A stretch of DNA of 64,000 nt. It comes from Mucilaginibacter sp. OK283. Lineage in GTDB: Bacteria > Bacteroidota > Bacteroidia > Sphingobacteriales > Sphingobacteriaceae. Shown here one piece after another: positions 42,106 through 47,304 of this stretch. Location of the stretch: positions 62,001 through 126,000 of the forward strand of contig NZ_FODR01000001.1 in the NCBI RefSeq assembly GCF_900110415.1. The letters run 5' to 3'. Below the pieces are notes generated by a model, which was not told the DNA's origin, did no database searches, and saw only the letters and a program-made list of their open reading frames with translations. Position 1 is the stretch's first letter; each line of letters opens with the position of its first letter. The position numbers and the translations under genes are program-made.

Positions 42106-42136
42106 TTGCTTATTATAAAAATATCTATTTACTTTG
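42106..42136 (+). promoter_or_regulatory. Promoter of the thr operon
   Basis: TTG at 42106-42108 and TTACTTTG at 42129-42136 are 20 bases apart. The Bacteroidota consensus is TTG, about 19 bases, TAnnTTTG; one consensus base differs (T for A at position 2). The predicted start of transcription is near 42142, about nine bases before the leader peptide ATG. Confidence 0.7.
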
Positions 42137-42150
42137 TCGACATTATAAGT

Positions 42151-42216
42151 ATGACAATTAACAACACCATTATTACAACAATTATTACCACCGGCATAAA
42201 ACTCGGAGGAAGATAA
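42151..42216 (+). CDS. thrL: Threonine operon leader peptide
   Basis: A 21-codon frame beginning MTINNTIITTIITTG. Twelve of its first 14 residues after Met are Thr, Ile or Asn: six Thr and six Ile codons in all before the Gly. This is the composition of a thr attenuator, because the ribosome stalls when charged Thr or Ile tRNA is scarce. The frame ends in TAA at 42214. Its last codons (Gly-Gly-Arg) form the antiterminator strand GGAGGAAG (42205-42212). The terminator hairpin follows at 42254-42286 and then thrA. Confidence 0.88.
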   Translation: MTINNTIITTIITTGIKLGGR

Positions 42217-42286
42217 TCGTATGGTGTAAAACATAAACAAAAGAAACCAAATGAAGCCTTCCTCCAAAAACGAGGAAGGCTTTTTT
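42205..42286 (+). terminator. thr attenuator: antiterminator strand and terminator hairpin
   Basis: The terminator stem pairs AAGCCTTCCTC (42254-42264) with GAGGAAGGCTT (42272-42282) around a 7-base loop and is followed by TTTTTT (42281-42286). Upstream, GGAGGAAG at 42205-42212 is perfectly complementary to CTTCCTCC at 42258-42265, which is the left arm of that terminator. A ribosome stalled in the Thr/Ile codons leaves GGAGGAAG free and allows the antiterminator to form. A ribosome that reaches the stop codon covers it and allows termination. This is the classical attenuation layout. Confidence 0.88.
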
Positions 42287-42312
42287 ATTATTTATATTGC
42301 TAAAAACACACA

Positions 42313-44763
42313 ATGAAAGTTTTAAAATTCGGCGGCACATCCGTAGGTTCCGCCGCAAGTATCCAAACGCTTTTAAACATATTAAAAGGCGAAGTAAAAA
42401 ATGAAGTTAAGCCGGTTGTTGTATTATCGGCGATGGGCGGGGTAACCAACCTGCTGGCCTCGATGGCCGAAGATGCCGCCAATGGTAAAGAGTTTACCGC
42501 TCAACTGGCCGAACTGGAAAGACGTCACTTTGATGTAGTAAAAACACTGCTCGATGTGCAAAACCAAAACCCGGCCTTCACCCGCTTAAAAATTCACTTT
42601 AACCAGTTAGAGGAATTACTGCAGGGCGTACTAACCCTGCGCGAGCTTACCCCCAAAACCCGCGACCAGGTGCTTAGCTTTGGCGAACGCTGCTCGACCA
42701 TTATGGTGAGTAAAATTGCCGCCCAGCATTTTAAAGATGTATTGTATGTTGATGCTGCAGATGTAATTAAAACCGACAGCGCTTTTGGCAATGCCAAGGT
42801 AAATACAGAGCTGACAGAGCTGCTTATTAAAACGTTACACCAGGAAAATAAAGATAAAATATTGTTTGTTACCGGTTTTATTGCAGGCAACGATGCCGGC
42901 CAAACAACCACATTAGGCCGCGGCGGCTCTGATTACACAGCTGCTATTTTCGGCGCGGCGCTTAACGCCAAAGAGATCCAGATATGGACGGATGTAAACG
43001 GTATGATGACCGCTGATCCGCGCATGGTTAAAAAAGCATTTTCATTAACCGAGCTTACCTATACCGAAGCCATGGAGCTTTCTTACTTCGGTGCCAAAGT
43101 GATCTATCCGCCAACTATGATCCCCGCTTTCCTGAAAAAGATACCTATTGTTATCAAAAACACTTTCGAGCCGGAATTTGAAGGTACCGTGATCCGTCAT
43201 GATTGTAAGGCGTCAAGCCTGCCTATCAAGGGCATTTCGTCTATAAACAATATCAGTATCCTTAATTTAGAGGGTAGCGGCATGGTTGGTAAATCGGGTT
43301 TTAGCGGTCGTTTATTCTCGTTGTTGGCCCGGGAGCAAATCAATATCATCTTGATTACCCAATCGTCGTCAGAGCACAGTATCACCTTTGCGGTACAACC
43401 ACAGGATACCGAAAAGGCCAAACAACTGATAGAACAGGAGTTTGAACTGGAGCTGCTGGCCAAAAAGCTGGAACACCTGGTTATCGAAAAAAATCTGGCC
43501 ATACTGGCTGTTGTGGGCGAAAATATGAAACAGACGCCGGGCATGTCGGGTAAGTTGTTCCATGCACTGGGTCGTAACGGAGTTAACGTGAGGGCTATAG
43601 CTCAGGGTTCGTCAGAGTACAATATCTCGGTAATCATTTCGGCCCAGGATCTTTCAAAGGCACTAAACGCAGTGCATGATGCTTTCTTTGTACAACTAAC
43701 CAAAACGCTTCATGCTTTCTGTTTAGGTACAGGCAACATTGGTAAAACCTTGTTTGCCCAGCTAAATGCCCATACCGATTATCTGAAAGATAATAACGGC
43801 ATCCAGGTAAAAGTTGCCGGCATCAGCAATACCCGTAAAATGACTTTTAACAGCGATGGTATCTCTTTAGATACCTGGCAAAATGACATAGAGGCATCAC
43901 CATACAGCGCCGATTTGAAAGAGTTTATTGCCAGGATGAAGGCCATGAACCTGCCCAACTGTGTGTTTATTGACAATACCGCCAGTCCTAAGCCAATTGA
44001 GTTTTACGAGGATGTTTTTAAAGCCAATATCTCGGTAATTACCTGTAATAAAATAGGTAACTCGGGCAGTTACGAGCAATACCGTACTTTTAAAGATACC
44101 GCCCGCCGCCATGGGGTCGATTTCTTTTACGAAACCAACGTAGGTGCAGGCCTGCCTATCATCAACACACTAAAAAACCTGATGAACAGCGGCGATAGGG
44201 TACAACGTATTGAAGCTATTTTATCAGGAACCATATCGTTCATCTTTAATAACTTTAAGGGCGATGCCAACTTTCACGATGTGGTGAAAGAGGCACAGGA
44301 AAAAGGATATACCGAACCAGATCCGCGCGACGATTTGAGCGGGAAGGATTTTATGCGCAAAATGCTCATCCTTGCCCGCGATGCAGGTTATGCGATGGAA
44401 GAAGCCGACGTTGATATTGAAAGCGTATTGCCGAAAGCCAGCCTTGAAGCAAAATCGGTAGATGATTTTTATGCTACCCTTAAAACAGAAGACGCCCACT
44501 TTGCAAAACTTAAAGAACAGGCCGAAAAAGACGGTAAAGTACTGCGCTACATTGGCAAGCTGGAAAATGGTAAAGTAACCATCACCCTGCAAATGGTTGA
44601 TGAAAACCATCCGTTTTACATGTTATCGGGCAGCGATAATATCATATCGTTTACTACCGATAGGTACAAAGAACGCCCGCTGGTAGTAAAAGGCCCCGGA
44701 GCAGGCGCAGAAGTAACCGCTGCAGGTGTATTTGCTGATTTGATAAATTTGGGAGCGAATTAA
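42313..44763 (+). CDS. thrA: Bifunctional aspartokinase/homoserine dehydrogenase
   Basis: An 816-residue fusion, close to the length of E. coli ThrA. The aspartokinase domain (1-290) opens with KFGGTSVGSAAS. Two ACT regions follow (about 310-470; GFSGRLFSLL, GVNVRAIAQGSSEYNISVI), where threonine would bind. The dehydrogenase domain (about 475-816) begins with CLGTGNIGKTLFAQL and holds the NADPH fold. It carries out the first and third steps of threonine synthesis from aspartate. It is the first structural gene after the attenuator. Feedback by threonine is expected from the ACT region but not shown here. Confidence 0.97.
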   Translation: MKVLKFGGTSVGSAASIQTLLNILKGEVKNEVKPVVVLSAMGGVTNLLASMAEDAANGKEFTAQLAELERRHFDVVKTLLDVQNQNPAFTRLKIHFNQLEELLQGVLTLRELTPKTRDQVLSFGERCSTIMVSKIAAQHFKDVLYVDAADVIKTDSAFGNAKVNTELTELLIKTLHQENKDKILFVTGFIAGNDAGQTTTLGRGGSDYTAAIFGAALNAKEIQIWTDVNGMMTADPRMVKKAFSLTELTYTEAMELSYFGAKVIYPPTMIPAFLKKIPIVIKNTFEPEFEGTVIRHDCKASSLPIKGISSINNISILNLEGSGMVGKSGFSGRLFSLLAREQINIILITQSSSEHSITFAVQPQDTEKAKQLIEQEFELELLAKKLEHLVIEKNLAILAVVGENMKQTPGMSGKLFHALGRNGVNVRAIAQGSSEYNISVIISAQDLSKALNAVHDAFFVQLTKTLHAFCLGTGNIGKTLFAQLNAHTDYLKDNNGIQVKVAGISNTRKMTFNSDGISLDTWQNDIEASPYSADLKEFIARMKAMNLPNCVFIDNTASPKPIEFYEDVFKANISVITCNKIGNSGSYEQYRTFKDTARRHGVDFFYETNVGAGLPIINTLKNLMNSGDRVQRIEAILSGTISFIFNNFKGDANFHDVVKEAQEKGYTEPDPRDDLSGKDFMRKMLILARDAGYAMEEADVDIESVLPKASLEAKSVDDFYATLKTEDAHFAKLKEQAEKDGKVLRYIGKLENGKVTITLQMVDENHPFYMLSGSDNIISFTTDRYKERPLVVKGPGAGAEVTAAGVFADLINLGAN

Positions 44764-44778
44764 AGCACAGTCCCTTAA

Positions 44779-44892
44779 GCCCCCTAACCCCCTGAAGGGG
44801 GAACTATAGTTTGATAAATTTATATGGAAGATAATAAGACATTCGAAACAACTAAACCCTCTTTGGCTCCCCCTTCAGGGGGCGGGGGGGGC
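44779..44892. repeat. Palindromic element spanning the thrA-thrB gap and thrB start
   Basis: The left arm (44779-44804) is base-for-base the same as the left arm of the element at 34615. The right arm (about 44867-44892) is its inverted counterpart with CCCCCTTCAGGGGG, inside thrB, where it encodes PPSGGGGG. The thrB ATG at 44824 lies in the loop between the arms. The last bases beyond the right arm (ACACGTTT...GCC) are shared with the comB locus as well. Confidence 0.88.
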
Positions 44893-45813
44893 GTACACGT
44901 TTTTGCCCCGGCAACGGTTGCCAACGTAGTTTGCGGCTTTGATGTGCTGGGCTTTGCCGTTAACGAGCCCGGTGACGAAGTGATTATGCGGATGACCAAT
45001 AAGCCAGGCATCACTATAAGCAAAATTACCGGCGATGACGGTAGGTTGCCGATGAATCCTGCAAAAAACACAGTGAGTGTGAGCGTTCAGCATTATTTGC
45101 AAAGCGTTGGCCGTACCGATGTTGGATTGGATATTGAACTGCATAAAAAAATGCCGATAGGTAGCGGCTTGGGTTCAAGCTCGGCCAGTACGGTTGCCGG
45201 TTTGTTTGCTATTAAAACCTTGTTAGGCGATGATAGCGATCCTGCAAAATTGCTGCCATTCGCTATGAAGGGCGAAGAGATGGCTTGCGGCCATGGCCAT
45301 GCAGATAATGTTGCCCCGGCATTGTTGGGCGGTTTTGTACTTATCCGCAGTTACGAACCTTTGGATGTAGTGCGTTTGCCGCATCCGGCAGGCTTGTGGT
45401 GTGCCATTGTGTTCCCTGATGTAGATGTACCAACAAGAGAAGCCCGCCAGATAATCCGCAAAAATATCCAGATGAAAGATGCCGTAACCCAATGGGGTAA
45501 TATTGCAGGGCTGGTAAGCGGCTTGTTTATGAATGATATTGACCTGATGGGCCGCAGTATGAAGGATGTATTGGTTGAACCGGTACGTTCCATGCTGATA
45601 CCTGATTTTTATAAAATGCGCGAAATGGCGATGGAATTAGGCGCGGTGAGCTTTGGTATCTCCGGCTCTGGCCCCTCTGTTTTTGCCTTCACAAAAGATG
45701 AGGATACAGCGCATCGGATAACCCAAAAACTACAAAAACATTTAACCGGTTTAAAAATAGGCTCTAATGGCTACGTATCAACTATAAATGATGCCGGGCC
45801 GAGGGTTCTTTAA
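44824..45813 (+). CDS. thrB: Homoserine kinase
   Basis: A 329-residue GHMP kinase that makes phosphohomoserine. The ATP-binding loop is MPIGSGLGSSSAS near residue 112, and the C-terminal motif is GISGSGPSVFAF near 279. The family normally begins near HVFAPATVANVVCGFD; here 24 extra residues precede it, including PPSGGGGG encoded by a palindromic repeat arm. The start is ATG at 44824. It follows thrA after 60 bases and precedes thrC across a second, unrelated palindrome. Confidence 0.95.
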   Translation: MEDNKTFETTKPSLAPPSGGGGGVHVFAPATVANVVCGFDVLGFAVNEPGDEVIMRMTNKPGITISKITGDDGRLPMNPAKNTVSVSVQHYLQSVGRTDVGLDIELHKKMPIGSGLGSSSASTVAGLFAIKTLLGDDSDPAKLLPFAMKGEEMACGHGHADNVAPALLGGFVLIRSYEPLDVVRLPHPAGLWCAIVFPDVDVPTREARQIIRKNIQMKDAVTQWGNIAGLVSGLFMNDIDLMGRSMKDVLVEPVRSMLIPDFYKMREMAMELGAVSFGISGSGPSVFAFTKDEDTAHRITQKLQKHLTGLKIGSNGYVSTINDAGPRVL

Positions 45814-45947: not shown

Positions 45948-45993
45948 AGAAAAAAACAAATCCGAAATCGAACATCCGAATTCCCAAATCAAA

Positions 45994-47304
45994 ATGAAAC
46001 TCTACAGTACCAATAATATTCAATCAGAAGTATCTTTTAAAGATGCAGTTTTTAACAGTATGCCGCAGGATAAAGGTTTATACATGCCCATTAGCATCCC
46101 GCGTTTGAGCGACGATTTTATCAATAACCTGGATAAGTATACCCTGCCCGAAATTGCTTTTGAAGTAGCTAAAAACCTTTTAGGCGATGCGATGCCGGCT
46201 GATGATTTGAAAGCTTTGATAGATGACGCTATAAACTTTGATGCGCCGGTTGTAAAGCTGGATGATAACGTACACGTGCTGGAACTTTTCCACGGGCCAT
46301 CACTGGCCTTTAAAGATTTTGGCGCCCGCTTCATGAGCCGTGTAATGAGCTACTTTTTAGAGGAAGGCGAAAAACAGCTGGATGTATTAGTTGCAACAAG
46401 CGGCGATACCGGCGGTGCCGTTGCCCTGGGCTTTTTAGGCGTTCCAAATACAAGGGTTACTATTCTTTATCCCAAGGGCAAAGTAAGCGGTGTGCAGGAA
46501 CAACAATTAACCACAAACGGACAAAATATTCGCGCCCTTGAAGTTGATGGTACGTTTGATGATTGCCAGGCTTTGGTTAAACAAGCGTTTACCGATGCCG
46601 AACTGAACGAAAAATTCCGCCTGACATCGGCCAACTCTATTAACATTGCCCGTTTGGTACCGCAAACCTTTTACTACTTTAACGCTTACGCGCAGTTGCT
46701 AAGGCAGGGTGTTAAAAAAGTAATCTTCTCGGTACCCAGTGGAAACTTTGGCAATATCGGTGCCGGTTTGTTAGCCTGGAAAATGGGCTTACCTGTTGAA
46801 AAGTTTATTGCAGCTACAAACGCTAATGATACCGTCCCCGAATTTTTAAAAACAGGCATTTATCAGCCAAAACCATCGGTGGCAACCTTGTCAAATGCCA
46901 TGGACGTGGGCAACCCAAGCAATTGGGTGCGCATTGCCGATCTGTTTAAAACAGATATGGATGAGCTGAAGAAATTGGTGATTGGCTTCACTTACAACGA
47001 TGAGGAAACCATAAAAGCCATCAATTGGGTATTTGATACTTATAATTATGTGGTTTGTCCGCATACCGCTATTGCCTGGCAGGCCTTGACAGATTATCAG
47101 CATGATCACGCCAGTGCAGATACCGCAGGCGTATTTTTATCAACCGCTCACCCATGCAAATTTCCAGATGTTTTTAGCGATGAAATAGCTGCTAAAATTG
47201 ATGTGCCGGCGCAGGTAAAAGAACTGCAATCTAAAACAAAATTGGCTATATCTATTAGCAAGGATTTTGAAGACTTTAAAGGCTATTTGCTGAACGCTAA
47301 ATAA
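45994..47304 (+). CDS. thrC: Threonine synthase
   Basis: About 436 residues; it converts phosphohomoserine to threonine using PLP. The PLP-lysine is in GPSLAFKDFGARF near residue 107, and the Ser/Gly-rich phosphate loop reads ATSGDTGGAVALG. ATG at 45994 (MKLYSTNNIQSEVSF) is the family start. The in-frame ATG at 45940 falls in the palindromic repeat and would add 18 residues of repeat translation. It is the last gene of the thr operon, and a hairpin follows. Confidence 0.96.
   Translation: MKLYSTNNIQSEVSFKDAVFNSMPQDKGLYMPISIPRLSDDFINNLDKYTLPEIAFEVAKNLLGDAMPADDLKALIDDAINFDAPVVKLDDNVHVLELFHGPSLAFKDFGARFMSRVMSYFLEEGEKQLDVLVATSGDTGGAVALGFLGVPNTRVTILYPKGKVSGVQEQQLTTNGQNIRALEVDGTFDDCQALVKQAFTDAELNEKFRLTSANSINIARLVPQTFYYFNAYAQLLRQGVKKVIFSVPSGNFGNIGAGLLAWKMGLPVEKFIAATNANDTVPEFLKTGIYQPKPSVATLSNAMDVGNPSNWVRIADLFKTDMDELKKLVIGFTYNDEETIKAINWVFDTYNYVVCPHTAIAWQALTDYQHDHASADTAGVFLSTAHPCKFPDVFSDEIAAKIDVPAQVKELQSKTKLAISISKDFEDFKGYLLNAK

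Follow-up and report, generated by a model that had tools for sequence, protein, structure and literature searches.

A predicted ribosome-mediated transcription attenuator upstream of the thrABC genes in Mucilaginibacter

We will describe the region which precedes the thrABC genes in Mucilaginibacter sp. OK283. The window, which is the whole stretch of DNA that was analysed, has 64,000 nt; positions are counted from its first nucleotide and the features are on the plus strand, unless otherwise said. Three genes of threonine synthesis follow each other: thrA (42313..44763) codes for bifunctional aspartate kinase/homoserine dehydrogenase I (NCBIfam NF006959, 1054.9 bits for a cut-off of 726), thrB (44824..45813) for homoserine kinase (NCBIfam NF002288 and TIGR00191, both above cut-off) and thrC (45991..47304) for threonine synthase (TIGR00260, 301.7 bits for a cut-off of 167.1). 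The start of thrC is likelier to be 45991 than 45940, where its open reading frame (ORF) opens. The gene upstream of the leader is rsgA, which is found in the minus strand. The leader terminator is therefore not that of rsgA; it serves only transcripts which start between rsgA and thrA.

A promoter-like site, of what we take to be the Bacteroidota type, is found at 42106..42136: TTG (42106-42108), 20 nt and TTACTTTG (42129-42136). It is followed by the leader ORF, MTINNTIITTIITTGIKLGGR, which goes from ATG at 42151 to TAA at 42214-42216 and has 21 codons, six of them for Thr and six for Ile. No other ORF has at least six Thr and at least six Ile among the 956 ORFs of 12–40 aa found in both strands of the window, a list in which the leader is extended at its N-terminus to a TTG. 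Codons 13–14 (ACC ACC, 42187..42192), the last two for Thr, end 12 nt upstream of region 2, GGAGGAAG (42205..42212), which occupies the last leader codons and is the 5' arm of the antiterminator. Its exact complement is region 3, CTTCCTCC (42258..42265), the 3' arm, which overlaps the left arm of an intrinsic terminator (42253..42286; stem 42253-42264/42272-42283, loop 42265-42271, T6 42281-42286). There are 26 nt between T6 and the start of thrA; the stem ends 29 nt before this start. The antiterminator has two additional inner helices, 42217-42220:42251-42254 and 42222-42225:42246-42249, with their 5' arms in TCGTATGGTGT (42217..42227) and their 3' arms in ACCAAATGA (42246..42254). A preliminary description of this DNA had reported the TTG-N20-TTACTTTG site (42106-42136), the leader with its six Thr and six Ile (42151-42216) and the GC-rich terminator ending in TTTTTT (42253-42286) before thrA (ATG at 42313), and we have found all of them in place. 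The exact complementarity of GGAGGAAG and CTTCCTCC which it claimed also stands, but the two inner helices were missing from it.

Some other features of the region may be mentioned. The antiterminator arm is a purine tract which resembles a Shine-Dalgarno site; such an arm would be awkward in species which rely on these sites. The mini-ORF ATGGTGTAA, placed 3' of the stop codon, was considered as a second start behind the Shine-Dalgarno-like GGAGGAAG and discarded: it is more simply explained as inner antiterminator and complement of Thr codons. Another ORF (42251-42316) crosses the terminator and overlaps the start of thrA as ATGA; it is probably due to chance, and its frame is not the same in locus L001. 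In some relatives, palindromic insertions similar to REP elements (GCCTCACCC...CTCTCC...GGAGAGG) are found between attenuator and thrA. The CTCTCC motif is present between terminator and thrA in ten of the best 80 of 343 thrA relatives (L005, L008, L016, L017, L020, L021, L023, L024, L027 and L065).

The fold of 42142-42290 has an energy of -35.2 kcal/mol (z -5.72), which is equalled by none of 200 shuffles. Its outcome depends on the length of the RNA and on the position of the ribosome. An RNA made as far as 42267 folds best into the antiterminator with its three helices (-19.8 kcal/mol) if a ribosome is placed at codon 6, 10 or 14. A ribosome on the stop codon leaves the same RNA unfolded, and the full RNA then forms the terminator only. 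The preliminary description had suggested such folding with and without a ribosome over the leader. Both geometry and constrained folds agree that a stalled ribosome would free the antiterminator and that a ribosome at the stop codon would block it. In the full RNA the terminator is still preferred with a ribosome stalled at codons 10–14 (-22.8 kcal/mol; the antiterminator of the RNA which ends at 42267 has -19.8 kcal/mol), so that the switch must be kinetic and the decision taken during the passage of RNA polymerase, as it is in known attenuators.

If no ribosome is present, the minimum free energy fold is the antiterminator in the RNA which ends at 42267; in the full RNA it is the terminator together with a protector helix. 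The latter is formed by a possible region 1, ACACCAT (42164..42170, within Asn-Thr-Ile codons), and a possible 3' arm, ATGGTGT (42221..42227), which was missing from the preliminary description. In 73 of the 80 nearest loci (best 80 of 343) the protector helix has 6 bp or more, and the means of the sets lie above all 200 codon permutations. Individually, the 95th percentile of its own codon permutations is exceeded in none of these 80 nearest loci (best 80 of 343) and in 11 of 102 family loci. We found no covariation for this helix in the family alignment: 64.6% of its cells are paired against 62.7% when shuffled, a value near the edge (reached in 17 of 500 shuffles). Tentatively, the protector helix may form when the leader is not translated.

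The conservation of these elements was studied in two sets, which overlap within the genus. The nearest set contains the best 80 of 343 thrA relatives: 72 are from Mucilaginibacter, seven from 'Bacteroidetes bacterium' and one from 'Sphingobacteriaceae bacterium'. For the family set, the family being taken as Sphingobacteriaceae from the names of these relatives, 121 genomes were searched; 108 have a thrA match at E 1e-150 or better and all 108 upstream regions were read. We looked for a terminator-like hairpin, a leader with seven or more Thr and Ile taken together and an antiterminator with 6 bp or more. The three are present together in all 80 nearest loci (best 80 of 343), which thus have the leader frame and the antiterminator on whose conservation in relatives the preliminary description made its reading depend. 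Among the 108 family genomes the terminator is found in 102, the Thr/Ile leader in 100 and the antiterminator in 95, and 17 of the 19 genera are represented. The joint test is passed by 94 of the 108 real upstream regions and by 2 of 1080 regions resampled with a first-order Markov model; of 27 regions 5' of hisG, taken as a rough negative control, 2 pass it as well. The six family genomes in which no terminator was found are all those of g5 (4/4) and g8 (2/2), whose thrA is only 47–50% identical. The element is still kept in 15 of the 80 nearest loci (best 80 of 343) in which over 90 nt separate the terminator from thrA.

A covariance model of the element (R1) gave 46 strong matches in 61 family genomes (a single one in each genome, with E no higher than 3.7e-9), a scan which is partly circular, since many of the sequences scanned had also been used to build the model. 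Those strong matches which were compared with the positions of thrA lie directly 5' of this gene. The 15 genomes without a strong match are those of g5 (4) and g8 (2) and nine with no thrA match. The promoter-like site is also frequent: the pattern TTG-N15-24-TTANTTT is found 5' of the leader in 67 of the 80 relatives (best 80 of 343) against 81 of 1600 base shuffles, with the reservation that the pattern was derived from the same sequences in which it was counted and that in some of the 80 the contig starts too near to show the site. The site at 42106..42136 may well act as a promoter.

We now turn to the pairing of the arms. The 101 distinct sequences among the 102 with a terminator were aligned with MAFFT, blind to structure, and scored with the structures derived from the window; the counts which follow are inflated by related sequences, and the scored structure comes from a single row of the alignment. 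In the terminator 84.6% of the cells are paired, compared with 78.1% when shuffled, and 62 cells have changes on both sides compared with 19.3; neither value is reached in 500 shuffles. Eight of its pairs show double changes, a number equalled in 52 of 500 shuffles. In the antiterminator, with 16 pairs in three helices, 65.7% of the cells are paired (60.5% shuffled), 15 of the 16 pairs have changed on both sides (11.3 shuffled, reached in 1 of 500) and so have 107 cells (59.4 shuffled, reached in none of 500). It beats six slid versions of itself on all five measures, with the +1 slide being near in paired cells (64.2%). The covariation is thus above both shuffled and slid controls. The outer helix has 7 of 8 pairs changed on both sides and 73.3% of its cells paired; in the inner helices all 8 pairs have changed on both sides in some sequences and 56–59% of the cells are paired. 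Conservation is thus higher in the outer helix.

The change of both arms in concert is apparent when the sequences are compared: GGAGGAAG:CTTCCTCC, CGGGGC:GTCCCG, TGGGGG:CCCCCA, ATCGGGAGC:GCTCCCGAT and AGGGAAGT:GCTTCTCT. Pairing of the leader end with its own terminator arm exceeds the 95th percentile of base permutations in 75 of the 80 nearest loci (best 80 of 343) and in 73 of the 102 family loci. When arms are swapped between genera, the own pairing is above the re-pairings (reached in none of 2000), with 19.12 for the own arm and 17.01 for that of another genus. A reversed arm used as control also scores higher with its own partner (15.99 vs 14.67), so this signal is in part due to composition and we rely on the base-pair counts rather than on the swap test.

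The region combines a leader ORF rich in codons for the end product of the pathway, an intrinsic terminator before the first structural gene and an antiterminator which shares an arm with this terminator. We consider it highly probable that 42151-42286 is a ribosome-mediated transcription attenuator of thrABC, as predicted from these elements. It would work as follows. With abundant threonyl-tRNA the ribosome would go on to the stop codon and lie over GGAGGAAG; the terminator would then be free to form and transcription would end near 42286. A shortage of threonyl-tRNA, and probably of isoleucyl-tRNA as well, would make the ribosome stall on codons up to 14. In this case GGAGGAAG, together with both inner segments, could pair with the left arm of the terminator as soon as it is made, and once the antiterminator has formed RNA polymerase would continue into thrA. 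That the ribosome stalls, that the helices form in this order, that transcription ends at 42286 and that the outcome depends on threonine are all steps which we infer. Translation-coupled attenuation of thrABC by Thr/Ile charging had been proposed in the preliminary description; conservation and covariation support it, and the placement of the codons favours Thr.

The core leader has 21 aa in 71 of the 80 relatives (best 80 of 343), with 68 distinct peptides, and the gap between the last Thr codon and the antiterminator arm is 11–14 nt in 75 of the 80 loci (best 80 of 343); among the family loci (n=95) it is broader, with 9–14 nt in most of them. A distance of 11–14 nt is about the reach of a ribosome past its A site. 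The last Thr codon would thus be at the limit of the footprint, so that the arrangement appears to suit Thr best. This has to be weighed against the idea that the leader is mainly a sensor of isoleucine, given that Ile is made from Thr and that Ile codons are as numerous as those of Thr: there are six in the window and a median of five in the 80 relatives (best 80 of 343). The ranges found in these same 80 (best 80 of 343) speak against it, since Thr (median 6) varies between 4 and 10 and Ile between 0 and 8. Furthermore the Thr codons are those nearest to the geometric limit, and a ribosome at Ile16 would already overlap part of the antiterminator arm. We consider such an isoleucine sensor improbable; that the charging of Ile is sensed besides that of Thr is probable.

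Two other explanations are also improbable. The leader might be an independent small transcript (a small RNA or protein) that has a promoter and a terminator of its own, thrA having a separate promoter. The promoter-like site and the strong terminator would agree with it, and in the 15 of 80 relatives (best 80 of 343) where more than 90 nt separate terminator and thrA there is room for a promoter. However, the 26 nt found in the window between T6 and the start of thrA are too little space for a Bacteroidota promoter, a simple terminator has no use for a conserved antiterminator which competes with it, and the leader codons correspond to the product of the operon; we give it very little credit. 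Equally slight are the chances of a switch at the level of translation, in which the hairpin masks the start region of thrA and transcription does not end: its stem does finish 29 nt from this start, but the start codon is outside the stem, an unbroken T6 comes directly after it and the element is kept in those 15 of 80 relatives (best 80 of 343) where over 90 nt lie between the start of the hairpin and thrA.

Attenuation by a leader peptide does not appear to be limited to thrABC. The R1 model has 29 weaker matches in the family genomes, and the genes were checked for the best 12 of them. Four lie 5' of ilvA (NCBIfam above cut-off) and two 5' of an ilvE-like gene. The ilvA cases have a leader rich in Ile/Val and a terminator, and are found in the four g5 genomes (L313-L316; MKNLSTIITVIIIIVVIIHT in L313). 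The ilvE-like gene is preceded by Ile/Leu leaders in two g16 genomes (L317 and L319), its best models being just under their cut-offs. Another weaker match, L318, has a small Leu-rich ORF and a terminator; no ORF of 100 aa follows within the stretch. In the genome of the window itself, hisG (L243) has a leader, MNGIALHHLHLHHHHVVIS, with seven His, which ends in the hairpin CACCAC-CAT-GTGGTG. In the class a small ORF with at least three His precedes hisG in 26 of the 30 loci examined (L253-L282; 45 genomes have hisG); the start of hisG was not located in three of the 30, and 22 of the other 27 have a terminator-like hairpin 5' of the gene. A stretch similar to T[AT]TCTACG[CT]GA was seen by eye after the leader hairpin in the his leader L243 and in the distant thr leaders L159, L160 and L161; none of 26 other his leaders was found to have it. 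Also by eye, the chorismate-binding/trpE-like gene of the same genome (L245) is preceded by a small ORF with Trp-Trp and then by CCCGGCG..CGCCGGG-TTTTTTT, which is likely to be a Trp attenuator. The Rfam family Bacteroid-trp, a Trp attenuator, does not match at L245, either at its gathering cut-off or at E up to 1. The related leaders of ilvA and ilvE-like genes and the His-rich leaders of hisG indicate that attenuation looks general for amino-acid control in these bacteria.

In the rest of the class Bacteroidia there are 26 genomes with a thrA match; we have read 25 loci and found 22 starts (those of L139, L157 and L163 were missed). In L139, read by hand, there is a similar purine-tract leader end and a terminator, with an R1 score of only 17 bits (E 0.15). 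A different arrangement is found upstream of thrA in 12 of the 22 class loci and in the four of g5, 16 in all (L143, L144, L145, L149, L150, L152, L154, L155, L159-L162, L222, L223, L239 and L240): a small ORF has at its end a GC hairpin, which is located at the stop codon or just before it. Examples which hold the stop codon or closely precede it are ACGGG-GTAA-CCCGT and ACCCC-TTA-GGGGT. Eleven of the 16 leaders are clearly rich in Thr/Ile (density score of at least 4.5), and the richness is weak in L152 and L159-L162; in L160 and L161 the ORF with the hairpin was picked by eye. In the 15 hairpins tested an equal one appears in 0.4–11.6% of the shuffles, and in L160 the best hairpin is another one. 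In none of the 16 loci did our scan detect a U-tract terminator from the leader to thrA, where a degenerate terminator may be present, for example in L159; L150 has a U-tract terminator at 331 nt before thrA, placed 5' of the leader. Searched for with a pattern that was too strict, the stop-codon hairpin was detected in 6 of 149 genomes. It is conceivable, though we remain doubtful, that the thr leaders of Bacteroidia have two unrelated read-outs: the antiterminator/terminator pair, which would be that of most genera of the family, and a GC hairpin at the stop codon with no U-tract terminator, in other lineages and in one genus placed in the family. If this were true, a stop-codon hairpin which starts in the last Thr codon would be an undescribed attenuation device, perhaps dependent on Rho. 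The contrast between both types of leader is a lead which can be tested.

Attenuation in this phylum has been approached from several sides. In Flavobacterium psychrophilum, which belongs to the same phylum as the species studied here and to another family, strong clues have been reported for leader-peptide attenuation 5' of amino-acid biosynthesis operons; the term 'thrA' does not appear in the main text of that paper (PMC9723704). Promoters and translation initiation in the phylum are described there as unlike those of model bacteria (PMC9723704). In B. thetaiotaomicron small ORFs similar to leader peptides have been reported within long 5' UTRs (PMC7366714). A paper of 2010 states that no leader-peptide system had been shown beyond Proteobacteria and Actinobacteria until its own case in Firmicutes (PMC2965389), and in the same year Bacteroid-trp (RF01692) was listed as a cis-regulatory RNA of Bacteroidetes (PMC2864571). 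A study of his genes in the superphylum has a single mention of attenuation, placed in the general introduction (PMC8305728). Our search of the open-licence literature found no thr attenuator of Bacteroidota as the topic of a title or of the start of an abstract, in agreement with the earlier remark that the cases of this phylum are less well described than the enterobacterial one. Two comparative surveys of attenuation should be added: Lopatovskaya 2010 is said to be one of them, and the other, Vitreschak 2004, reportedly names Bacteroidetes/Chlorobi in its abstract among the groups with candidate attenuators. The present results give evidence at the level of base pairs, backed by covariation, for ribosome-mediated attenuation in a phylum with atypical promoters and translation initiation.

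We finally compare the element with known RNA families. At gathering cut-offs Rfam has no match in the whole window, including T-box, the riboswitch families and RF01692. A relaxed search of 301 nt gives Thr_leader (RF00506) as the best match, with 37.4 bits and E 1.1e-5; the next one has 21.9 bits. Thr_leader is also the Rfam match with the highest score in bits in six related leaders, five of thr and one of ilvA (25.5–48.8 bits), while for the ilvA leader other families give similar E-values. Its gathering score of 55 bits is not reached by any of the seven leaders (window and six relatives). This best match indicates a similar way of working and not a common descent. As in the thrL of gamma-proteobacteria (RF00506), there is a Thr/Ile leader, an antiterminator and a terminator with a common arm, and a position directly 5' of thrA. 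Unlike it, Mucilaginibacter has arms, spacing and a GGAGGAAG antiterminator of its own. Leader-peptide attenuation is a kind of element long known; the thr case described here is conserved through most of this family.
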